Positions 30,426 to 40,369 of a stretch of DNA of 64,000 bases are shown piece after piece. The DNA is taken from contig NZ_CP091819.1 in NCBI RefSeq assembly GCF_019740355.2, positions 3,348,001 to 3,412,000 on the forward strand, given 5' to 3'. Position numbers and translations under genes: made by a program. The stretch comes from Paracrocinitomix mangrovi. Its GTDB lineage: Bacteria; Bacteroidota; Bacteroidia; Flavobacteriales_D; Crocinitomicaceae. Every line of letters begins with the position of its first letter. Positions within the stretch are counted from its first letter, which is position 1. The notes beneath the pieces are model-generated. The model ran no database searches and was not told the DNA's origin. It saw only the letters and a list, made by a program, of their open reading frames with translations.

Positions 30426-31205
30426 ATGACTGAGGAACAAATATTTGCCTATCTCAATAGAAGCTTAAGTAATGAAGAAATGATTGAAGTTGATCTGTGG
30501 ATCGCTAAATCTTCTGAAAACATGACTTACTTTAATGAATTGAGAAAAAAATGGTCTGCACAAAAAAAATTGCAGTACCAATTAGAAAGAGAAGCAAAAT
30601 ACGGTAGCTCTGCAACCAAATCCAGACAAAAAAGAGAAATACCCTCTGAAGGAAATAACTATAACAGTGGAACCACAATTCCGGAAATTAAAAAGCCTAA
30701 TAAGATTATCATCTTTGCCTTTTTTGCAGGATTAATTGCTTTAGGTGGAGCAATTTCTGTTTTTACTGCTGTTAAAGCCGAAAAAGATAGTGGTGAATAT
30801 TATGAAAGTGAAATGCTTGAGCTTATTACAACTGATCAAGTAGATGTCGCTTTTTTATCTGATGGTTCATCTATTACCGTTTATGATCATTCTACATTTT
30901 ATTACCCATCAGAATTTGAAGATGGGGATAGAAATGTTGAGTTAATCGGATCTGCCTATTTTGATATTGTTTATGATAATGGTAATGATTTCATTATTAA
31001 ACTTCCTTATGACTCCTATGTTGAAACAACTGATGGTGCGGTTCAATTAACATATGATGATGTTAGCGGAACAACTGAAGTGTATGTTTCAGAAGGAAGT
31101 ATCAAAGTATATAATGATGAAGAAAAACACCGAATGACGCAAGGAGCTTTTGGTACATTCAATAATATTACCGGAGAATTAGAACTGCTTACAGAAGGAT
31201 TTTAA
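30426..31205 (+). CDS. Truncated FecR-like membrane protein without adjacent sigma factor
   Basis: 259 residues. The N-terminal cytoplasmic part ('LNRSLSNEEMIEVDLWIAKS') is paralogous to that of the FecR protein at 32635 and would bind a sigma factor. One membrane helix (about 97-120, 'IIFAFFAGLIALGGAISVF') leads to a periplasmic FecR beta domain ('DVAFLSDGSSITVYDHSTFY', 'VELIGSAYFDIVY', 'TEVYVSEGSIKVYNDEE'). The C-terminal STN-interacting domain (DUF4974-like) of typical FecR proteins is missing. No sigma gene precedes it. It may be a decoy or a second input to the sigma factor encoded at 32066. Confidence 0.78.
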   Translation: MTEEQIFAYLNRSLSNEEMIEVDLWIAKSSENMTYFNELRKKWSAQKKLQYQLEREAKYGSSATKSRQKREIPSEGNNYNSGTTIPEIKKPNKIIIFAFFAGLIALGGAISVFTAVKAEKDSGEYYESEMLELITTDQVDVAFLSDGSSITVYDHSTFYYPSEFEDGDRNVELIGSAYFDIVYDNGNDFIIKLPYDSYVETTDGAVQLTYDDVSGTTEVYVSEGSIKVYNDEEKHRMTQGAFGTFNNITGELELLTEGF

Positions 31206-31221
31206 ATTTTTTTTAGGGTAG

Positions 31222-31252
31222 AATAGGGGTAAACATTTTTTGAGTTGTCTTA
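31222..31252 (+). promoter_or_regulatory. ECF-type promoter, head-GIN/sigma/FecR/STN operon
   Basis: AATAGGGGTA-N13-TTGTCTTA, 26 bases before the ATG at 31278. The same two boxes with the same 13-base spacing occur at 36800-36829 before the TonB-dependent receptor. It does not resemble the housekeeping TAnnTTTG promoter, so recognition by the ECF sigma factor encoded in this operon is inferred. Confidence 0.7.
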
Positions 31253-31277
31253 CTAATGAACGACAAAATTTAAGACA

Positions 31278-32006
31278 ATGAAAAGAATGAAATTTTTTAT
31301 ACCGGTATTATCAGTTTTAGCTTTAGCATCATGTAAAAAGGGTGGTGTTTTTTGTTATCACGGAAATGGTGACATAATAACTGAAACCAGAACAGTAAAC
31401 AACTTTAGTCAAATTGAATTGGCTTCTCAAGGAACTGTTTACGTAACTCAATCTAGTGATTATAATGTGAAGGTTGAGGCCAGCTCCAATCTAATGGAGA
31501 TTCTTGAAACCAAAGTAGTAGGAAGCAAATTGATCATTGAAACCAAAAAAGGTAAATGCATCAAAGGAAACGAAGAGATCAATTACTACATATCTGCTCC
31601 TGAAATTAGTGCATTGATTATCTCAGGAAGTGGAAACATTTTGGCAGAAGATGGGATAAATGCAAATAATATGAAGTTTACTATCTCAGGAAGTGGAGAC
31701 ATCACTGCTAATAATCTTGACGTAAATGATGTAAAAGCTACAATTTCAGGTTCAGGATCTATTTATGCTCATTCAACAAATACGGTAGAAACTTCAGATT
31801 TAACCATCAGTGGTTCTGGAAACATAGATATGTATGAGATGCCTACTAAAGATGTAGATTGTAATATCTCGGGTTCAGGATCATGCTATGTAAACGCAAT
31901 AGAAACTTTGAAAGTGAATATTTCAGGATCAGGAGATGTAGTGTATATTGGACAACCGGTATTGAACACTAATATTTCAGGTTCTGGTAATGTAAGACCC
32001 TATTAA
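31278..32006 (+). CDS. Head-GIN (DUF2807) lipoprotein
   Basis: 242 residues with a lipoprotein signal (KRMKFFIPVLSVLALASCKK, Cys about 19) and then a DUF2807 'putative auto-transporter adhesin, head GIN' domain. The opening 'TVNNFSQIELASQGTVYVTQ' is diagnostic, followed by repeated SGSG(N/D/S) turns of a right-handed beta-helix (about 110-242, seven to eight repeats). It is likely attached to the outer membrane, facing the periplasm or surface. It is the first gene behind the putative ECF promoter and precedes the sigma factor gene, so it belongs to the signalling operon. Confidence 0.87.
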   Translation: MKRMKFFIPVLSVLALASCKKGGVFCYHGNGDIITETRTVNNFSQIELASQGTVYVTQSSDYNVKVEASSNLMEILETKVVGSKLIIETKKGKCIKGNEEINYYISAPEISALIISGSGNILAEDGINANNMKFTISGSGDITANNLDVNDVKATISGSGSIYAHSTNTVETSDLTISGSGNIDMYEMPTKDVDCNISGSGSCYVNAIETLKVNISGSGDVVYIGQPVLNTNISGSGNVRPY

Positions 32007-32055
32007 ATAAATGGTTGAACAGGACAAAAATCAGTTTTGTCCTGTTCGCTTTGTA

Positions 32056-32063
32056 TATCTTTG
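32056..32063 (+). promoter_or_regulatory. -7 element just before the ECF sigma gene
   Basis: TATCTTTG (perfect TAnnTTTG), 2 bases before a GTG and 5 before a TTG, both in frame with the sigma factor. It suggests a housekeeping, leaderless promoter in addition to read-through from the ECF-type promoter upstream. Confidence 0.45.
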
Positions 32064-32065
32064 AG

Positions 32066-32632
32066 GTGTTGAAAACAACTATTGCTAATATCGATATTGC
32101 CGAATACGAAAGTATTTTCAGAAGTCATTATCCTGAATTGTGCGGATTTGCCAATAAGTACCTGGATGATTTGGATGCTTCAGAAGAAGTGGTACAGCAA
32201 ATTTTTGTAAAGCTTTGGGAAAATAAATCTGAATTATCAATTGTAGGAAGTATTAGAAGTTATTTGTTTTCAGCTGTTAGAAACGGATGTCTCAACCAAA
32301 TAAAACACATAAAAATCAGAGAGACATTCAAAGAACACAACCAAAGAGAAATTGAGCAAAATGCACAATATGCAGATGAAGAAATGGATGCTTCAGAATT
32401 GGAGCTGAAAATAAAAGCAAGTATTGATGCATTGCCTGAGAAGAGAAAGAAAATATTCATTTTGAGCAGGTATGAAGGATTGAAGTATAAAGAGATTGCC
32501 GAAAAATTGAATATCAGTGTTAAAACAGTAGAACATCAAATGGGAAGCGCTATTAAACAATTAAAGTCAGATTTGGCCGATTACATGGTTCTCTTTTGTT
32601 TTTTCTGCTGGAATATTTTCAATAATTATTAA
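32066..32632 (+). CDS. ECF RNA polymerase sigma factor
   Basis: 188 residues from the chosen GTG; TTG at 32069 is an alternative, and a longer frame from a TTG at 32015 has no homologous look. Region 2 is 'EYESIFRSHYPELCGFANKY', 'ASEEVVQQIFVKLWENKSEL' and 'SYLFSAVRNGCLNQIKHIKI'. Region 4 is 'LPEKRKKIFILSRYEGLKYK', 'EIAEKLNISVKTVEHQMGSA'. This is the Bacteroidota RpoE/FecI-type that partners FecR proteins. A hydrophobic tail (VLFCFFCWNIFNNY) is unusual and might touch the membrane. The FecR gene starts 2 bases after its stop. It is the likely reader of the AATAGGGGTA/TTGTCTT promoters. Confidence 0.85.
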   Translation: MLKTTIANIDIAEYESIFRSHYPELCGFANKYLDDLDASEEVVQQIFVKLWENKSELSIVGSIRSYLFSAVRNGCLNQIKHIKIRETFKEHNQREIEQNAQYADEEMDASELELKIKASIDALPEKRKKIFILSRYEGLKYKEIAEKLNISVKTVEHQMGSAIKQLKSDLADYMVLFCFFCWNIFNNY

Positions 32633-32634
32633 AG

Positions 32635-33651
32635 ATGTCATACGAGGATAAAATAGACGAAGCAATCTTGCTGGCTTATCTCAATAAAGAGTTGAGTACA
32701 GAAGAAATGACTGCAGTTGATCTGTGGTTGGCTAAGTCTTCAGATAATATGAAGAGATTGAACGACATACGAAAAGTTTGGAGTCTAACAGCTGATGTGA
32801 AAGTAAAACCGGCAGATGTAGATACAGATGCTGCCTGGAACAAAGTTTTGAGTCAAATAAATGATCAACAACAAGTAATTCCAATCCAAAAGAATATTCA
32901 AAGAAGCATGTTTATCCGAATTGCCGCAGCAATTGTTGTGTTAATAGGGGTAGCCGGAGCTTACCTGTTCTTGGGTAAAAATGAAGAAATACATGACCTT
33001 ACTTTAACAGCAGATAATGGAGTTTTAACTCAAGATTTAGAAGATGGAACTACTATTACCTTGAATAAAAATTCAGTGCTTACTTATCCTGAAAATTTTG
33101 AAGGTGATGAAAGAAGAGTAGCCTTGCAAGGAGAATGTTTCTTTGATGTTGAAAGAAATGAAGAAAAGCCATTCATCATTGATTTACCTAATGAATCTTA
33201 TGTTAAGGTGTTGGGTACATCATTCAATATCAAAGCAGTTGAAGGTGATGAGTTGACTGAAGTATATGTCAATTCAGGAAAAGTTGAATTTGGTAATAAT
33301 GAGTCTAAAGTATTGTTAACTGCTGGACAAAAAGCCTTAATGAACAATGCAGATGGTTCCATTCAAAAAATAGATGACAGGGTTGAAGGTATGACCGATA
33401 TGTTTTGGATGGACAAGTACCTTGAGTTTGATGGAGAAAGCATGGAAGAGGTAGTACAAATATTGAATAGAGTTTATCAGGATCAGGTAATAATTGAGTG
33501 TGATAAATTAAAATCAAAAACCATCAGGTCTGTACACAGAGGTGAGGAACTTGTGGAAGTATTGCAAGTATTGAAAAGCAATATGGATTTTGAAATTGAA
33601 GAGCAATTAACAGAATCAGGTAATACCTACTTTTTAAAGTGTAATGATTAA
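32635..33651 (+). CDS. FecR-type anti-sigma factor
   Basis: 338 residues. The cytoplasmic sigma-binding N-terminus ('LLAYLNKELSTEEMTAVDLW') is followed by one membrane helix (about 98-118, 'MFIRIAAAIVVLIGVAGAYL'). The periplasmic FecR domain ('GTTITLNKNSVLTYPENF', 'RVALQGECFFDVERNEEKPF', 'VLGTSFNIKAVEGDELTEVY') leads to a C-terminal DUF4974 domain (about 258-338, 'YLEFDGESMEEVVQILNRVY') that contacts an STN domain. It is co-transcribed with the sigma gene upstream and overlaps the STN-protein gene by 8 bases, giving a complete sigma/anti-sigma/STN relay. Confidence 0.93.
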   Translation: MSYEDKIDEAILLAYLNKELSTEEMTAVDLWLAKSSDNMKRLNDIRKVWSLTADVKVKPADVDTDAAWNKVLSQINDQQQVIPIQKNIQRSMFIRIAAAIVVLIGVAGAYLFLGKNEEIHDLTLTADNGVLTQDLEDGTTITLNKNSVLTYPENFEGDERRVALQGECFFDVERNEEKPFIIDLPNESYVKVLGTSFNIKAVEGDELTEVYVNSGKVEFGNNESKVLLTAGQKALMNNADGSIQKIDDRVEGMTDMFWMDKYLEFDGESMEEVVQILNRVYQDQVIIECDKLKSKTIRSVHRGEELVEVLQVLKSNMDFEIEEQLTESGNTYFLKCND

Positions 33652-35506
33652 AAAGTTGTTTTTGATATTGTTCTTTTTCCTGGTAGGTTTTCGCTCCATT
33701 GCAGGGGGAGGTTTGTTGGATATCGTTGTCAACATTGACATTAAAAACCAAACTGTCAAGTCTATTCTCATTACAATCGAAGAAAAAACGGCAGTGAGTT
33801 TTACTTACAGTCCGGATATGATTGATGTGCAAAAAGTCGTCTCCCTCAGCATTCAAAATAAAACGATAAGGCAAGGATTACAAATGATATTTGGAGATGG
33901 GGTCAGGTTCAAAGAAGTCGGCAATCACATCATCCTACTTAAAAATGAAACAAAAGAAGATATCAAGGCTCTCTTAAAAGAGGACCTTGATTACATCTTT
34001 ATAGGGGTTATTACTGATAAGTCTACAGGTAAACCAATCAAAGAAGCAAGTATCTATGAAATTGAAGATAGAAATGCTACCCTTTCTGATGATCTGGGTT
34101 TTTATTCCCTGACCGTTCCTGCAACACATGAGGTTGTGAGTTTGTACATTAAAAAGAAAGGGTACAGAGAGAAGGTAATTGTGCTAAAGGGGGATGGTAA
34201 AGAAAAATTACTGAATGATATTGCGCTTGATCCAATAATGGCAGATGTATCATTGATGACCGGTAAAAGTGTGAGTAGGGTTCCTCAAAATATTAATGAC
34301 AGAGCAATTTCCGGTCAGCTCGTTTCTGATGAAACTTATTTGCACGGTGAAAACCTTGATGAAATTGATGAGACACGCTGGGCACAGGTTTCATTGGTGC
34401 CTTCTGTAAGTATTGGTTCAAATTTATCTACTAATGCCCTTATCAATAATCATTTTTCATTGAATGTCTTAGGTGGATATTCTAAAGGAGTTAAAGGTGT
34501 AGAGATAGGAGGATTGTTTAATCTAAACAAGGAGAATGTTACAGGGTTACAAATTGGAGGTATAGCTAATCTGGTTGGAGGAGATGTGACCGGTTTTCAA
34601 GTTGGAGGACTTGCTAACTTATTACAAGGAAATGCAACAGGTGCGCAAATTGCCGGCATATCCACTATTATGAAAAGAGATTTGAAAGGTCTTCAATTGG
34701 CGGGAGTATCTGCCATTGTAAGGGGAGGATTTGAAGGTGCACAAATTTCAGGAGTAAGTAATATCACATGGAAATCTTCCAGAGGTGCCCAAATTTCAGG
34801 AGTGTTTAATATGGTAAAAGACAGTTTGTATGGTGGACAAATTTCTGGTGTTTCTAACTTTTCAAATGGTGGTGTTAACTTTTTGCAGATTGCGGGTGTT
34901 TCCAATTTTGCCCACAAAAATTATGGCTTGCAAATAGCCTCAATACAAAATTTCACAAGAGAAAATAATGGATTACAAATTGGTTTGTTTAATTCAAGTA
35001 TTAGGGGAAAAGGTGTGGCAATTGGTCTTTTCAATTTTGTAAAAGAGGGATATCATAAAACCGAAATATCCGCTAATGAAATTTTCCCAATCAACGTAAT
35101 ATTCAAAACAGGAACGCAACGACTGTATAATACTTACAATTTTGGCGCAAGATTCGGAAACAAAAGAGCCTATGCAATGGGATTAGGATTTGGTTCATAC
35201 TTTAATCTTACTAAAAATGAGAAACTCAAATTAAGCTTGGATCTTTCTGGTCAATTGGTTTTTGAAAATGATTTTAAGGCGGTTGAATTTGCCCAATTGT
35301 ACAAAGTGTCTACCACAATAGATTATCAATTGGCTAAATGGGTGACGGTATTTGCAGGTCCGTCTTTCAATTTAAATATGCAGCAATTTGCGGATGTAGA
35401 TGGAGCTTATTCTACAGACATTTCTTTTATGCCAATTGCTGATAACTCTTACAGCTGGGGAAGATCAATTTATTGGATTGGTGGACAAGTTGGATTTAGA
35501 TTTTAA
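33644..35506 (+). CDS. STN-domain protein with GxQIxGxxN surface repeats
   Basis: 620 residues. A signal peptide (KKLFLILFFFLVGFRSIAG) is followed by an STN (secretin/TonB N-terminal) domain at about 25-105 ('NQTVKSILITIEEKTAVSFT') and a carboxypeptidase-regulatory-like beta domain at about 118-195. About eleven repeats of 17-22 residues with core G(L/A)QI(A/S/G)G(V/I)(S/A)N occupy 285-465, and a beta-rich C-terminal part (470-620) looks like a membrane barrel. There is no TonB plug. The repeats resemble those of Leptospira-type LA_2272 surface proteins. Its gene overlaps that of the FecR protein, so it should occupy the position a FecA-like receptor normally holds. Confidence 0.83.
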   Translation: MIKKLFLILFFFLVGFRSIAGGGLLDIVVNIDIKNQTVKSILITIEEKTAVSFTYSPDMIDVQKVVSLSIQNKTIRQGLQMIFGDGVRFKEVGNHIILLKNETKEDIKALLKEDLDYIFIGVITDKSTGKPIKEASIYEIEDRNATLSDDLGFYSLTVPATHEVVSLYIKKKGYREKVIVLKGDGKEKLLNDIALDPIMADVSLMTGKSVSRVPQNINDRAISGQLVSDETYLHGENLDEIDETRWAQVSLVPSVSIGSNLSTNALINNHFSLNVLGGYSKGVKGVEIGGLFNLNKENVTGLQIGGIANLVGGDVTGFQVGGLANLLQGNATGAQIAGISTIMKRDLKGLQLAGVSAIVRGGFEGAQISGVSNITWKSSRGAQISGVFNMVKDSLYGGQISGVSNFSNGGVNFLQIAGVSNFAHKNYGLQIASIQNFTRENNGLQIGLFNSSIRGKGVAIGLFNFVKEGYHKTEISANEIFPINVIFKTGTQRLYNTYNFGARFGNKRAYAMGLGFGSYFNLTKNEKLKLSLDLSGQLVFENDFKAVEFAQLYKVSTTIDYQLAKWVTVFAGPSFNLNMQQFADVDGAYSTDISFMPIADNSYSWGRSIYWIGGQVGFRF

Positions 35507-35617
35507 CCCCTATAAATCAGTTAATTGAAATTTTTTTCCAATTTTTTTTCAAAAAAATGCAATAGAATTAAAAGGCTTCGTCTTTATGGTCAAAGAAGTA
35601 ATTTTACAATTGCGTAA

Positions 35618-36154
35618 ATGTCTAAACCGGAACAAAATAACGAAGTAAAACTCAAGTCCTTTTTTAGCGAAGAGTATAAGTCTTTAAAAGCTTATGTCAA
35701 CTCTAAAATCGCTGAAACTACAGACAGAGATGCTGAAGATATTTTGCAAGATGTGGCTTTGAAATTGTTTTCTAGAAACAATACTTCTCCAATTCAAAAT
35801 GTAGCTGGTTTTGTCTACAGTGCTATAAGAAATAGAATTGTGGATATAATGAGGTCCAAAAAACCACAAACTACGCATCAAATTGAATTAGAGAACCATC
35901 CATTTGATTTGATAGAATCTATTGAATTTAATGATGATGAAGCTTATTCTGAAAAGGTTCAGCACGAATTGAAAAAGGCTATTTCTAATCTAAAGCCAAA
36001 GTACAGACAAATAATTATGGCAATAGATTTTGAAGGATATTCTTACAAAGAATTGTCCGAGCAATTTGAAATTCCAATAGGAACTTTAATGTCCAGAAGA
36101 CACCGAGCATTGGCATTACTTCACAAACAATTAGCAAGTAAAAACTTTAAATAA
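35618..36154 (+). CDS. Second ECF sigma factor
   Basis: 178 residues. Region 2 is 'SEEYKSLKAYVNSKIAETTD', 'DAEDILQDVALKLFSRNN' and 'FVYSAIRNRIVDIMRSKKPQ'; region 4 is 'LKPKYRQIIMAIDFEGYSYK' and 'ELSEQFEIPIGTLMSRRHRA'. It is of the ECF type without a C-terminal extension. No FecR gene follows; instead come a small membrane protein (8 bases later) and an HMA-like protein. A -7-like TACAATTG (35605-35612) ends 5 bases before the ATG. An adjacent regulator of this factor could be the membrane protein at 36162 (inference). Confidence 0.9.
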   Translation: MSKPEQNNEVKLKSFFSEEYKSLKAYVNSKIAETTDRDAEDILQDVALKLFSRNNTSPIQNVAGFVYSAIRNRIVDIMRSKKPQTTHQIELENHPFDLIESIEFNDDEAYSEKVQHELKKAISNLKPKYRQIIMAIDFEGYSYKELSEQFEIPIGTLMSRRHRALALLHKQLASKNFK

Positions 36155-36161
36155 AAAGAAA

Positions 36162-36569
36162 ATGGAAGATTTTTTTAAACACAAAATGAGATCTAAAAAC
36201 CCGGCAGTTATCGCCGGAATTGTACTACTGATTATAGTTGCAGTTATTGGTTTTGCAGCCTTGTTTGGCTTTGTTGTAATGTGGTTGTGGAATTGGTTGA
36301 TGCCTGAGATTTTTGGCTTGCCAATCATAACGTTCTGGCAAGGAGTTGGAATTGTAATTCTGTCTAAAATATTGTTTGGTGGCTTTGGTGGCGGCGGAAG
36401 CAAAGGCAAAAAGCATCATAAAGGACACAAAAAACACAATGATGGAAATGATGACTTTTCTAAATGGAAACATTATGGTCAGTTTTGGAAAGAAGAAGGA
36501 GAAGAAGCATTTAAGGCTTATGTGGCAAGAAAAGGAGGTGATGTAAACTTGTCTGCAGAAGAAGAGTAA
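36162..36569 (+). CDS. Two-helix membrane protein with Gly/His-rich loop
   Basis: 135 residues. Two hydrophobic segments (about 16-45 and 52-75) are followed by a Gly-rich stretch (FGGFGGGGSKG), a His/Lys-rich stretch (KKHHKGHKKHND) and an acidic C-terminal helix (FWKEEGEEAFKAYVARKGGD). No family is recognised. The His-rich segment might bind divalent metal. It lies between an ECF sigma gene and an HMA-like gene on one operon, so it may be the membrane sensor or anti-sigma partner (speculative). Confidence 0.65.
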   Translation: MEDFFKHKMRSKNPAVIAGIVLLIIVAVIGFAALFGFVVMWLWNWLMPEIFGLPIITFWQGVGIVILSKILFGGFGGGGSKGKKHHKGHKKHNDGNDDFSKWKHYGQFWKEEGEEAFKAYVARKGGDVNLSAEEE

Positions 36570-36788
36570 ATGAAAATCCTTGTATTTAAAACAAATATCA
36601 ATACTTCTGTTGATCTGGAAATGGTTGATGCTTACTTAAGTGACCATACACTGATAGATGATTGGTCTGTTGATATTGAAGATATAGATAAGGTACTGAG
36701 AGTGGTTTCTTCCTCCCATTTAATTGCAGATGAAATCAACCATTTAATCAATGGTTTGGGTTATCAATGCAGTGAATTATCAACTTAA
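36570..36788 (+). CDS. HMA-like ferredoxin-fold small protein lacking CxxC
   Basis: 72 residues. The order of elements (MKILVFKTNI strand, helix, 'IDDWSVDIEDIDKVLRVVSS' double strand, helix, 'GYQCSELST') resembles the beta-alpha-beta-beta-alpha-beta fold of heavy-metal-associated proteins, but the metal-binding CxxC is absent. Its ATG directly follows the stop of the Gly/His-rich protein gene (TAAATG), so the two are coupled. It may be a non-metal adaptor; the assignment rests on fold-like pattern only. Confidence 0.65.
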   Translation: MKILVFKTNINTSVDLEMVDAYLSDHTLIDDWSVDIEDIDKVLRVVSSSHLIADEINHLINGLGYQCSELST

Positions 36789-36799
36789 TTTTAATTTGT

Positions 36800-36829
36800 A
36801 ATAGGGGTAGTTTTGATTTGGATTGTCTT
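36800..36829 (+). promoter_or_regulatory. ECF-type promoter of the TonB-dependent receptor operon
   Basis: AATAGGGGTA-N13-TTGTCTT, 25 bases before the ATG at 36855. Boxes, spacing and distance to the start codon match the promoter at 31222-31252. Confidence 0.7.
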
Positions 36830-36854
36830 CTAATTGAACTGACAATTAGTAAAG

Positions 36855-39194
36855 ATGAAAACAATCAAAACTATTCTTATAATACTTGCTTTATCAAGCA
36901 CTTATTCCTGGTCGCAATTAACCCAAACAGTCAGGGGAACAATTGTAGACTTTGATACAAAAATTCCAATAATAGGAGCCAAAGTAATCATTGTTGATAC
37001 TGATCCAATTAAAGGGTCTGTTTCTGACATCAATGGAGATTTTAGGTTAGAAGAAGTTCCTGTTGGAAGAATCAATTTAAAAATCACCAGTGTAGGCTAT
37101 CAAGAAATTTATTTGCCTAATGCATTAGTAGAATCTGGCAAAGAAAAAGTACTTCAACTTCAAATGATAGAGGATATTAAAACACTATCAAAAGTTGAGG
37201 TTTCTGCCCAAAAAGACAAATCAGAGTCTATCAATAAAATGGCTACTACTTCTGCCAAAACCTTTACAGTTGAAGAAACAAGTAGATATGCCGGATCTTT
37301 CAATGACCCTGCAAGGATGGCATCCGGATTTGCAGGTGTTACCGGAAATCCTGAAGGGGATAATGATATTGTAGTACGCGGTAATTCACCAAGAGGAATT
37401 TTGTGGAGATTAGAAGGGATTGATATTCCAAATCCTAATCATTTTGCCAATACGGGTGGAACCGGTGGTCCAATTTCAGCATTAAATGGATCAATGTTGG
37501 CTAACTCAGACTTTTTCAGTGGAGCATTTGCTCCTGAATACGGAAATGCCCTTTCTGGTGTGTTTGATGTCAATTTCAGATACGGAAACAATGAAAAAAG
37601 AGAGTACAATTTCTCCATTGGAGCATTAGGTGTTGATGGAACTTTAGAGGGTCCATTTAAAAAAGGATACAGAGGATCTTATTTGGTGAATTATAGATAT
37701 TCTTCAATTGGATTACTTGACAAATTGGGAATCCTTGATTTTGGAGGAATTCCTATTTATCAAGACGCCGCATTCAAAGTGCATCTACCTACCAAAAAAG
37801 CCGGTACTTTCTCATTAATAGGAATGGGTGGAATCAGCCATATTCTGGAATCTTATGCACCCTATGAAGATACTATTTGGACCTATGATTTTGGCGCAAA
37901 CTTGGGAGTAGTTGGATTAAAGCATACTTACATTTTTAATGAAAAGGCTTATCTAAAAAGTTATGTAGCTGCATCTACGTCATCCAACTTTGGAGAAGGA
38001 AGATACATCAGAACGGATAGTTCCTCTTTGTTTGATGCAGAAAAGGATTTGTATAGAGATAATCAACTGAAGGGGCAAACCATCTTTAATTACAAATTGA
38101 ACAAGAAAAACTTGTTTCAAGTGGGAGCTACCTACACTCGTTTCAACTATAGATATTTCTATGAAGATGATTACGACAATCAAGATGGGATAATGAAAAG
38201 ATGGTTGGATGCTGATGGATCAGCAGATATGATTCAATCCTTTGTTAGTTGGAAGTACAGAATCAACCAGGATTTGACAATGGTTTCAGGTGTTCATCAC
38301 ACACAATTCTTTTTAAATAATAGCTATGCAGTTGAACCAAGAGTTGGATTAAAGTACAACATGCATCCAAGACACAGCATCTCATTAGGCGCAGGAATGC
38401 ACAGCAGAATTGAGAGTATTTCAACCTATCTGTACAATGAAATTCAGTCAGATGGATCATACAAAACATTGAATAAAAATCTGGGTCTTTCAAAAAGTGT
38501 ACATACAGTGGCCGGATACAATTTTCAATTGTCTGATAACATGTACATCAAAACTGAATTGTATTACCAGCATTTATACAATTTACCTGTAGCAAATGAC
38601 TCAAGTAGCTATTTCTCTTTGGTAAATTCTTCTGCCGGAATTCCGGATGTAGAACTGGTAAATAAAGGTACTGGAAGAAACTATGGAGTTGAATTGACTT
38701 TAGAGAGATTCTTTAACAACGGATACTATTACCTATTAACCGGATCATTGTACAAGTCTGAATATAAAGCATTGGACGGTATCACCAGAAGTACAAGGTT
38801 TGATGCCGGCTATGCTGCCAACTTATTGTTCGGAAAAGAATGGTCTTTTGGTAAAAAACAAAACAAAGCATTTGCCATCAACTCAAAAGTTTCTTTGATT
38901 GGTGGAAACAGATACACACCGGTAGATTTAGAAGCATCAAAAGATGCAGGATACACCATTTTTCAAACAGATAAAGGATTTTCAGCAAAAGGAGATAATG
39001 TATTTATCTGGAATTTAGGATTGACGTACAGATGTGACATGAAAAGAGCGACACACTCTTTCAAAATTGATGTACAAAATCTTACCAATAATCAGGCACG
39101 CATAAGAGAATGGTATAGCAATACAACTCAGTCTTTAGAGTACGACACGCAGTTGTCCATTATACCAAATGTTGTCTACAGCATCAAGTTTTAA
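36855..39194 (+). CDS. TonB-dependent outer-membrane receptor
   Basis: 779 residues. A signal peptide (ILIILALSSTYSWSQ) is followed by a carboxypeptidase-regulatory-like domain (about 22-115, 'VRGTIVDFDTKIPIIGAKVI'), then a plug ('DNDIVVRGNSPRGILWRLEG', 'GSMLANSDFFSGAFAPEYGN') and a barrel ending in aromatic-terminated strands (NVVYSIKF). It takes up an unknown substrate with TonB energy. There is no SusD partner and no N-terminal STN domain, so it is not itself a signalling receptor; its promoter is shared with the sigma/FecR/STN operon. The gene 18 bases downstream encodes a repeat protein. Confidence 0.9.
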   Translation: MKTIKTILIILALSSTYSWSQLTQTVRGTIVDFDTKIPIIGAKVIIVDTDPIKGSVSDINGDFRLEEVPVGRINLKITSVGYQEIYLPNALVESGKEKVLQLQMIEDIKTLSKVEVSAQKDKSESINKMATTSAKTFTVEETSRYAGSFNDPARMASGFAGVTGNPEGDNDIVVRGNSPRGILWRLEGIDIPNPNHFANTGGTGGPISALNGSMLANSDFFSGAFAPEYGNALSGVFDVNFRYGNNEKREYNFSIGALGVDGTLEGPFKKGYRGSYLVNYRYSSIGLLDKLGILDFGGIPIYQDAAFKVHLPTKKAGTFSLIGMGGISHILESYAPYEDTIWTYDFGANLGVVGLKHTYIFNEKAYLKSYVAASTSSNFGEGRYIRTDSSSLFDAEKDLYRDNQLKGQTIFNYKLNKKNLFQVGATYTRFNYRYFYEDDYDNQDGIMKRWLDADGSADMIQSFVSWKYRINQDLTMVSGVHHTQFFLNNSYAVEPRVGLKYNMHPRHSISLGAGMHSRIESISTYLYNEIQSDGSYKTLNKNLGLSKSVHTVAGYNFQLSDNMYIKTELYYQHLYNLPVANDSSSYFSLVNSSAGIPDVELVNKGTGRNYGVELTLERFFNNGYYYLLTGSLYKSEYKALDGITRSTRFDAGYAANLLFGKEWSFGKKQNKAFAINSKVSLIGGNRYTPVDLEASKDAGYTIFQTDKGFSAKGDNVFIWNLGLTYRCDMKRATHSFKIDVQNLTNNQARIREWYSNTTQSLEYDTQLSIIPNVVYSIKF

Positions 39195-39211
39195 TCATTA
39201 ATAAAGTAATC

Positions 39212-40369
39212 ATGAAAAAGATCATAATTTTTATCATCATGTATGTAATGGCTTTGGCTGCCATTGCACAAGAAGACAGTACAATGGTACGTCCGGCACA
39301 AGTCACATTTTTTTACCCTTTGGGAACCAATGGAACTTCAACAGCCTACACCAATAACTTTTCATTCAACATTTTGTATGGAGTAAATAATGGCGTAAAT
39401 GGAGCTGAAATTGGAGGTTTAGTGAATTCTAATTTGGGTCATGTTAATGGATTACAAATCGCCGGATTGGCCAATATGAATGCTAAAGCAGCTAACGGAA
39501 TGTTGATTGCGGGAATTGGGAATTTTGTAAAAGACACCAGTAACTCATTGGCCTTTGCCGGAATTTCAAATGTGATAGGAGGGAATGCTTTTGGAGCTCA
39601 TGTTGCCGGAATTTCCAATACAGTTAACGGAGACTTTTTAGGAGGTCAAGTAAGCGGAATTGTAAATGTGGTGAATGGAAATACTAACGGAATTCAGGTA
39701 GCCGGAATTACAAATGTTTCAGCAGGTGATATGCAAGGAGGACAAGTATCCGGCATCTCAAATATTGTAAAAGGGGATTTAAGTGGCGCCCAAATTGGTT
39801 TAATAAACAGAGCTGCAAATGTTAAAGGATTTCAGTTGGGATTGATCAATATCGCCGATTCTGTTTCAGGTGGTGTTCCACTTGGTTTGTTCAGCTTCGT
39901 AAAAAAAGGTTATCACTCTCTTGAATTGGAAGTAGGTGAGGCCATTTATGCCAATGCGAATTTTAAAATGGGAGTTGACAGATTATATACGATTTATAAG
40001 TTTGGTTATACCATGAATGGCGCAAATCAATACTGGTCGTATGGGTTGGGTTTGGGTTCTAAAATTAACGTGGCCAAAAATCTGGATATGTCTTTTGATT
40101 TGACAGGAAATCACATTGTTAAGCAAACGTTCAATCCTAATGTTGATTTGTTGGCAAAATTTGATCTGAAATTGAGATATAACATTGGTAAACATTTCAC
40201 AGTATTTGCAGGGCCTTCAGTCAATGGATATTTTTCAGAACATGACATAGACACTGAAACATCTGCACTTAAAGTTCCATATTCAATTCATACCTGGAAT
40301 TGGTGGAATGATGAAGGACAGTCTTATTTGTGGATAGGAGGAAATGCCGGAGTAGCGGTCAACTTTTAA
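39212..40369 (+). CDS. Surface-repeat protein, paralogue of the STN-protein C-terminus
   Basis: 385 residues. A signal peptide (IIIFIIMYVMALAAIAQ) precedes about eleven repeats with core GxQ(I/V)(A/S)GI(S/T)N (about 66-215) and a conserved C-terminal beta region. The block 'GLFSFVKKGYHSLELEVGEA' followed by a 'FKMGVDRLYTIYKFG' segment matches the STN protein at 35022-35155. It lacks the STN and carboxypeptidase-like domains. It is co-transcribed with the TonB-dependent receptor behind the shared ECF-type promoter. It is predicted to be an outer-membrane or surface beta-structure; ligand unknown. Confidence 0.82.
   Translation: MKKIIIFIIMYVMALAAIAQEDSTMVRPAQVTFFYPLGTNGTSTAYTNNFSFNILYGVNNGVNGAEIGGLVNSNLGHVNGLQIAGLANMNAKAANGMLIAGIGNFVKDTSNSLAFAGISNVIGGNAFGAHVAGISNTVNGDFLGGQVSGIVNVVNGNTNGIQVAGITNVSAGDMQGGQVSGISNIVKGDLSGAQIGLINRAANVKGFQLGLINIADSVSGGVPLGLFSFVKKGYHSLELEVGEAIYANANFKMGVDRLYTIYKFGYTMNGANQYWSYGLGLGSKINVAKNLDMSFDLTGNHIVKQTFNPNVDLLAKFDLKLRYNIGKHFTVFAGPSVNGYFSEHDIDTETSALKVPYSIHTWNWWNDEGQSYLWIGGNAGVAVNF

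Follow-up and report, generated by a model that had tools for sequence, protein, structure and literature searches.

A FecI-FecR-type locus in Paracrocinitomix mangrovi with its STN domain on a predicted solenoid-barrel protein rather than a TonB-dependent receptor

Introduction

In textbook cell-surface signaling, the outer-membrane importer doubles as the sensor, so import and signaling are hard to separate. The described systems FecI-FecR-FecA, FoxI-FoxR-FoxA, and PupI-PupR-PupB combine an ECF sigma factor, a FecR protein with an STN-like C-terminal domain, and an STN domain carried by an outer-membrane protein (PMC9249621, PMC11637429). In one proposal, the signaling domain shields the anti-sigma factor from proteolysis until a signal arrives, the two proteins meeting via their STN domains (PMC11637429). 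In the PUMA3 system of P. aeruginosa (VreA-VreR-VreI), STN belongs to a small protein other than a TonB receptor: VreA is described as mostly soluble, with a TolA/TonB-like C-terminal domain and no barrel (PMC2729926). VreA was the only precedent for an STN domain off the receptor that we recognized in the open-access literature searched, a body of literature that cannot prove that nothing has been printed. A Parabacteroides gene table also names an 'STN and carboxypeptidase regulatory-like domain-containing protein', in a passage that gives neither its full architecture nor its neighbors (PMC12893687).

Here we describe a locus from Paracrocinitomix mangrovi (Bacteroidota; Crocinitomicaceae), located in a window of 64,000 nucleotides (contig NZ_CP091819.1, positions 3,348,001 to 3,412,000) whose own numbering is used throughout. 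Like the FecI-FecR-FecA type, it has an ECF factor, a FecR protein with FecR_C, and an STN partner gene beside fecR. It differs in that STN lies off the receptor, a predicted solenoid and 8-strand barrel replace the plug and 22-strand barrel, and the neighboring receptor lacks STN. The STN protein, here called the transducer, is also unlike VreA: its C-terminal part models as a solenoid and barrel (a predicted anchor), it has a CarboxypepD-like domain, and an STN-less receptor lies nearby in 53 of 87 transducer loci.

Results

Gene order

The run from 30426 to 40369 holds, in order, a truncated FecR paralogue, a DUF2807 gene, an ECF gene, fecR, a repeat-protein gene (the transducer), a second ECF gene with two small genes, a TonB receptor gene, and a second repeat-protein gene. 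A preliminary description of this DNA had given the same gene order and coordinates, and its 8-base overlap of fecR with the transducer gene (33644-35506) was found as described. The features are:

30426..31205, + strand: truncated FecR paralogue without FecR_C (PF04773 22.7 bits, just below the cut-off of 24; alignment A6)
31226..31251, + strand: promoter-like motif GGGGTA-N13-TTGTCTT, 5' of the DUF2807 gene (motif scan and comparison with relatives)
31278..32006, + strand: DUF2807 (head GIN) protein, predicted sigma target (PF10988, E 7.9e-44)
32015..32632, + strand: ECF sigma factor, FecI-like (TIGR02985 177.4 bits, cut-off 126.4)
32635..33651, + strand: FecR sigma regulator, with FecR_C at 33418-33600 (PF04773 52 bits and PF16344 33.3 bits, both above cut-off)
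33644..35506, + strand: transducer, with STN, CarboxypepD-like domain, linker, predicted beta-solenoid, and predicted 8-strand barrel (Pfam, AlphaFold2, fold comparison, alignment A1)
36804..36829, + strand: promoter-like motif GGGGTA-N13-TTGTCTT, 5' of the receptor gene (motif scan and comparison with relatives)
36855..39194, + strand: TonB-dependent receptor without STN (CarboxypepD_reg above cut-off, Plug below cut-off)
39212..40369, + strand: STN-less solenoid and 8-strand barrel protein, the transducer paralogue (39% identity to transducer residues 248-618; AlphaFold2; fold comparison)

The FecI-like ECF factor adjoins the FecR protein that bears FecR_C, with TIGR02985, PF04773, and PF16344 all above their cut-offs; of the 29 TIGR02985 matches in its own genome, none but this ECF factor exceeds the cut-off. 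From the lengths of its relatives, its true start perhaps lies about 20 codons downstream of the annotated TTG. The DUF2807 gene opens the run holding ecf, fecR, and the transducer gene, and is present in 39/87 transducer loci.

Two further features of the run stand apart. The FecR paralogue at 30426-31205, in which Pfam found no FecR_C, heads the locus with no ECF gene of its own, and at most one FecR per locus was seen in 29 loci of the order; this paralogue may be a local duplicate acting as an STN-blind brake, or anti-sigma factor. Between transducer and receptor (35618-36788) lie a second, more divergent ECF gene (35618) and two small genes of no clear family. This second ECF gene had no counterpart in the 29 order loci or in 9 named relatives and is left out of the model below; at the same place, a same-genus locus (L033) carries two other genes.

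Domain content of the transducer

The transducer STN domain (33794-33940) scored 29.2 bits against Pfam PF07660, narrowly above the cut-off of 28.4 bits (30.9 bits in a genome-wide search), in agreement with its earlier assignment from sequence alone. In many relatives' transducers the Pfam STN score stays below cut-off (e.g., G183, G232, G278, and G163), and one (G052) gave no match at E ≤ 0.001; in such weak-scoring relatives STN was assigned by homology to the window protein. A profile comparison links the CarboxypepD-like region that follows (about 33992-34240) to the N-terminal extension of SusC (9hfj; E 4.5e-9), while CarbopepD_reg_2 remains below cut-off (25.7 vs 32.2 bits, Pfam). No Plug or receptor-barrel family was found on the transducer by Pfam at E ≤ 1. 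A disguised TonB receptor was therefore rejected, given also the 8-strand model described below, and a chance STN match was rejected because STN presence tracks FecR adjacency.

By eye, the transducer contains 11 repeat units (E287 plus ten Q positions, 15-16 residues apart). Across 134 proteins (97 STN-type and 37 STN-less, a set that counts seven loci twice), units were spaced 16 residues apart 713 times and 15 residues apart 176 times. Scores with LA_2272_repeat (NCBIfam NF047436) fell just under the curated cut-off of 25 (transducer, 23.3 bits; paralogue, 23.0), so the repeats are a probable relative of the LA_2272 surface repeat rather than a formal member. An aromatic C-terminal F is expected for an outer-membrane beta-signal, and F ends 73/97 STN-type and 31/37 STN-less proteins. 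Transducers range from 536 to 711 aa across loci.

Predicted structures

The AlphaFold2 models rest on alignments of ten sequences, taken from the window and from named relatives. Confidence in the transducer model was modest (pLDDT 71.8, pTM 0.47), with residues 200-278, the linker, mostly below 50. The best paralogue (39212) model reached pLDDT 82.5 and pTM 0.70, its five models spanning 82.5 to 50.4. Both proteins end in a predicted barrel (transducer residues 468-620, about 35045-35503; paralogue residues 232-385), which aligned to NspA, the OprF N-domain, OmpA, and a designed barrel at Z 12-13.8 and rmsd 1.8-3.2 Å, with Foldseek E > 0.001. For this C-terminal block the models predict an outer-membrane barrel of eight strands, similar to that of OmpA.

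The repeats model as a solenoid, in the transducer at residues about 288-454 (about 34478-35041). The top rows of its fold comparison, YdcK and GlmU, had Z 14-16.4 at rmsd > 9 Å, and a tailspike had Z 12.3 at rmsd 3.2 over 204 residues; the paralogue solenoid aligned to a beta-helical antifreeze protein (Z 12.8, rmsd 3.6 over 204 residues). In both proteins' comparisons the leading solenoid hits had rmsd 9-11 Å. Repeat strands are drawn differently in the two proteins' models, and a predicted beta-solenoid of 16-residue units is the best reading, short of certainty. Transducer residues 117-199 resemble the transthyretin-like domain of carboxypeptidase D (Z 12.2, rmsd 1.4) and the SusC extension 9hfj (Z 10.9, 29% identity), and the STN region of the model resembles the PupA signaling domain (Foldseek probability 1.00, E 0.047, TM-score 0.68 by target length). 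At E ≤ 0.001, the only Foldseek match was on the transducer, to its CarboxypepD-like domain; the paralogue had none. Since the predicted barrel is even-stranded, with its aromatic C-terminus in the periplasm, the repeats probably lie in the periplasm, on the same side as STN and away from the cell surface.

The preliminary description had read the transducer as STN, a carboxypeptidase-like domain, about eleven repeats, and a beta-rich C-terminus, with no plug or receptor barrel. Its domain list stands, and the absence of a barrel applies to a receptor barrel only, given the 8-strand barrel predicted at residues 468-620. It had also asked whether the repeats form a solenoid and whether a barrel is present; AlphaFold2 predicts a solenoid and a small barrel, with no plug or receptor barrel.

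Receptor and STN-less solenoid-barrel proteins

The receptor at 36855 carries CarboxypepD_reg from residue 25 and a sub-threshold Plug match (20 vs 23.9 bits); Pfam found no STN on it. The adjacent paralogue (39212-40369) corresponds to the C-terminal two thirds of the transducer (39% identity, residues 248-618), bearing out the earlier observation of a second repeat protein with the same C-terminal block beside an STN-less receptor. A receptor homologue (> 500 bits) is present in the 53 transducer loci mentioned above and was not seen in the other 34. None of these 53 receptors carried STN, their scores being at most 3.2 bits vs 15.7-52.1 on 10/10 classical FecR-linked receptors at one setting. 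Two further receptor paralogues are encoded elsewhere in the P. mangrovi genome. In 6 of 14 STN-less loci (L175, L176, and L179-L182), a solenoid-barrel gene is followed by a gene of the same receptor subfamily, the upstream side of L176 and L182 being out of view; this order hints at a functional unit.

STN and FecR_C in the genome

The genome, 99.97% complete, consists of one 4.37-Mb contig. Pfam STN matched it once (E ≤ 0.1), on the transducer. As the Pfam model misses some relatives' STN, a second, wider profile combining three transducers with seven classical receptors was run, and it too had a single genome-wide match (E ≤ 1), again the transducer. FecR_C likewise matched once (E ≤ 0.1), on the FecR protein adjoining the transducer gene. 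Another STN protein serving FecR 32635-33651 was considered and rejected, neither profile having found one.

Linkage to FecR across relatives

Two samples of loci were compared. In the order sample, a protein search of 299 genomes matched 32, and 29 loci were examined (the P. mangrovi genome, G041, and G046 being left out). In the class sample, a profile search of 395 genomes matched 148, in 93/197 genera; 59 loci (L102-L160), one per genome and nearly all with a match that extends into the N-terminal part of the profile, were taken from among the matches listed, and other class matches of the same type (e.g., G501, G677, and G504) lie outside this sample. Since all 25 relatives in alignment A1, the source of the STN profile, belong to the order sample, STN there is partly by construction; the class loci are independent. 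The set of 87 transducer loci comprises frames with STN and solenoid/barrel, after removal of L160, whose frame is broken by a stop. In that locus (L160:6943-10000), the stop separates the STN part from the solenoid part.

FecR lies directly upstream of the transducer in 86/87 loci (gap -143 to +67 nt), bearing out the conserved linkage that the preliminary description had proposed looking for in other genomes. Both ECF and FecR are present at 84/87; the exceptions lack FecR and ECF (L051), begin at a contig edge (L057), or have FecR but no ECF (L125). No FecR was found at the 14 STN-less solenoid-barrel loci, 11 of which are informative, with at least 4.9 kb of upstream DNA; L171, L176, and L182, with 0-349 bases upstream, were not counted. 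One intended STN-less control (L168) carries STN with an adjoining FecR and was counted as STN-type, so FecR adjacency in STN-type vs STN-less loci is 87/88 vs 0/11 (Fisher p 9.5e-14). Several of the control genes belong to genomes in which a different contig carries an STN-type locus. The protein that bears STN is not a receptor, and its gene is linked to fecR with very few exceptions.

Promoter-like motif

The two exact motifs in the window end 27 positions before the DUF2807 start and 26 before the receptor start. With up to 3 mismatches the window gave 6 matches where chance predicts a mean of 2.08, and 6 was reached in 0/100 shuffles; only the two exact ones were used. GTC in the -10 element is a feature of ECF-type promoters, and GGGTA-N12-14-TTGTC looks like such a promoter. 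It occurred 32 times in the order loci vs 1 for its backward form (523 kb) and 50 times in the class loci vs 5 (998 kb), as against 2 in the STN-less loci (209 kb) and none in 10 classical FecR/STN-receptor loci (81 kb). The motif was present in 18/29 order and 33/59 class loci.

A looser form was found near DUF2807 starts (13/23 order, 6/18 class), ECF starts (10/27, 19/59), receptor starts (6/21, 10/32), STN-less paralogue starts (0/7, 10/20), and FecR starts (2/28, 10/59), and rarely near transducer starts (1/29, 1/59); its backward control appeared near gene starts once in all. Across the genomes of 12 relatives, GGGTAA-N12-TTGTC had 49 copies vs 24 backward, 20 of the 49 inside the 20-kb locus; both copies in G165 lie in the locus, and G033 has none. 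Genome-wide in P. mangrovi the motif showed no excess (6 matches vs 10 backward), and the argument therefore rests on position; on the same counts, the idea that the motif is merely common was rejected. Two of these six matches lie in the window, and one is inside a 664-aa frame. At another (L163:1501-2365; genome position 2142303), the motif precedes the gene for a predicted outer-membrane protein of 277 aa with a C-terminal F, ending 9 positions short of its first start codon; this protein is possibly a third regulon member.

Discussion

Because the only STN found in the genome lies beside the only FecR_C found, and because transducers are linked to FecR in other genomes, the role of signal input appears to have shifted away from the TonB receptor. 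The preliminary description had placed this input on a non-receptor surface protein: FecR linkage and the sole STN found uphold the non-receptor part, while the predicted barrel topology speaks against the surface. We consider it probable that the locus encodes a FecIR-type relay, in which the transducer is a dedicated non-transporting outer-membrane protein and the receptor is a target and perhaps a partner. Behind this reading stand the computed domain order, predicted folds, linkage, shared promoter-like motif, and, as far as the profiles reach, uniqueness of STN; membrane topology, the STN-FecR contact, the direction of signaling, and the assignment of the motif as the predicted promoter of ECF 32015 are steps that we infer.

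In the proposed relay, the 8-strand OmpA-like barrel would anchor the transducer in the outer membrane, and a solenoid arm of about 11-12 coils, with the CarboxypepD-like domain, would extend STN across the periplasm to meet the STN-like domain at the C-terminus of FecR. When the barrel or solenoid changes, possibly by way of the STN-less TonB receptor encoded in the same locus, the STN-FecR_C contact would be altered, and the altered contact would free the ECF factor. The free factor would then switch on two motif-led runs: DUF2807-ecf-fecR-transducer, and the receptor with the STN-less paralogue. This locus has the parts that the proposed shielding of an anti-sigma factor (PMC11637429) requires, with STN carried by another anchor.

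Two versions of this relay differ in what the transducer reads. It is quite possible, if not the outcome we would favor, that ligand sensing falls to the STN-less receptor, which would signal to the transducer laterally in the outer membrane, as though a classical transducer had been split in two. Such a division is consistent with the receptor homologue in 53/87 loci, none with STN, with the consecutive receptor and solenoid-barrel paralogue genes behind one motif in the window, and with the solenoid-barrel and receptor gene pairs of 6/14 STN-less loci; against it, no receptor homologue was seen in 34/87 loci, and two more receptor paralogues are encoded elsewhere in the genome. Those same 34 loci favor a rather more doubtful version, in which the transducer senses the outer membrane itself (barrel assembly, lipid, or crowding) as an envelope-stress relay, with the receptor only a regulated target. 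The modeled sensor would be a small barrel without transport machinery, and the motif also precedes DUF2807 and perhaps the 277-aa predicted outer-membrane protein. However, STN-less solenoid-barrel genes directly before the same receptor subfamily, in those 6/14 loci, suggest a functional pair.

Readings outside the relay as proposed fare less well. The NCBIfam name of the repeat, a surface repeat, would suit surface-exposed repeats that bind a ligand or neighbor cells directly, but this is unlikely, as the repeats come after STN, which could reach FecR only from the periplasm, and before the first strand of a barrel whose predicted strand number is even. It is highly unlikely that STN makes no contact with FecR, the genes being together by co-transcription only and FecR governed otherwise: the STN score just above cut-off, its weakness in several relatives, and the L051 protein without FecR would fit, but two profiles found no other STN in the genome, and STN presence goes with FecR adjacency (87/88 vs 0/11).

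In the classical control set, ten ECF-FecR-STN receptor loci of the same family, STN is likewise at the start of the gene after ECF-FecR (10/10) and the CarboxypepD-like profile matches 8/10, but the receptors are longer (852-889 aa vs 536-711 aa) and the promoter-like motif is present in 0/10. In several genomes of the family, an STN match (above cut-off in two, G064 and G091) falls in a 636-659 aa frame away from the studied loci; our guess is that this is possibly a secretin.

The repeats can be compared with a described protein through the template 1dab, which we take to be the beta-helix pertactin. Fold recognition for LA2272 gave this template (PMC2387172), in line with a solenoid. Unlike the LA_2272 surface repeat, the repeats here are fused to STN, a CarboxypepD-like domain, and a predicted barrel, and are probably periplasmic. 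The preliminary description had also suggested that the arrangement would be a new architecture. As far as our search reached, that applies to STN combined with a solenoid and barrel; VreA, as described, already has STN off the receptor, without a barrel (PMC2729926).

We lean, somewhat beyond an even balance, toward a widespread branch of cell-surface signaling that uses, in place of the TonB-dependent transducer, a dedicated non-transporting outer-membrane protein, a small barrel with a solenoid lever spanning the periplasm. This protein would read either a separate receptor without STN or the condition of the outer membrane, so that sensing and import are uncoupled. Sensing and import are apparently on separate proteins, and the sensing protein is FecR-linked in many sampled genomes of the class, so that the outer-membrane signal step could be studied without transport, with the predicted promoter as a ready reporter. 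The relay would also point to a role for repeat proteins of the LA_2272-like kind, as none is given in the portions of literature found. If so, a small-barrel protein with a long repeat arm, serving as the outer-membrane half of the relay, would be a new way to wire such signals.
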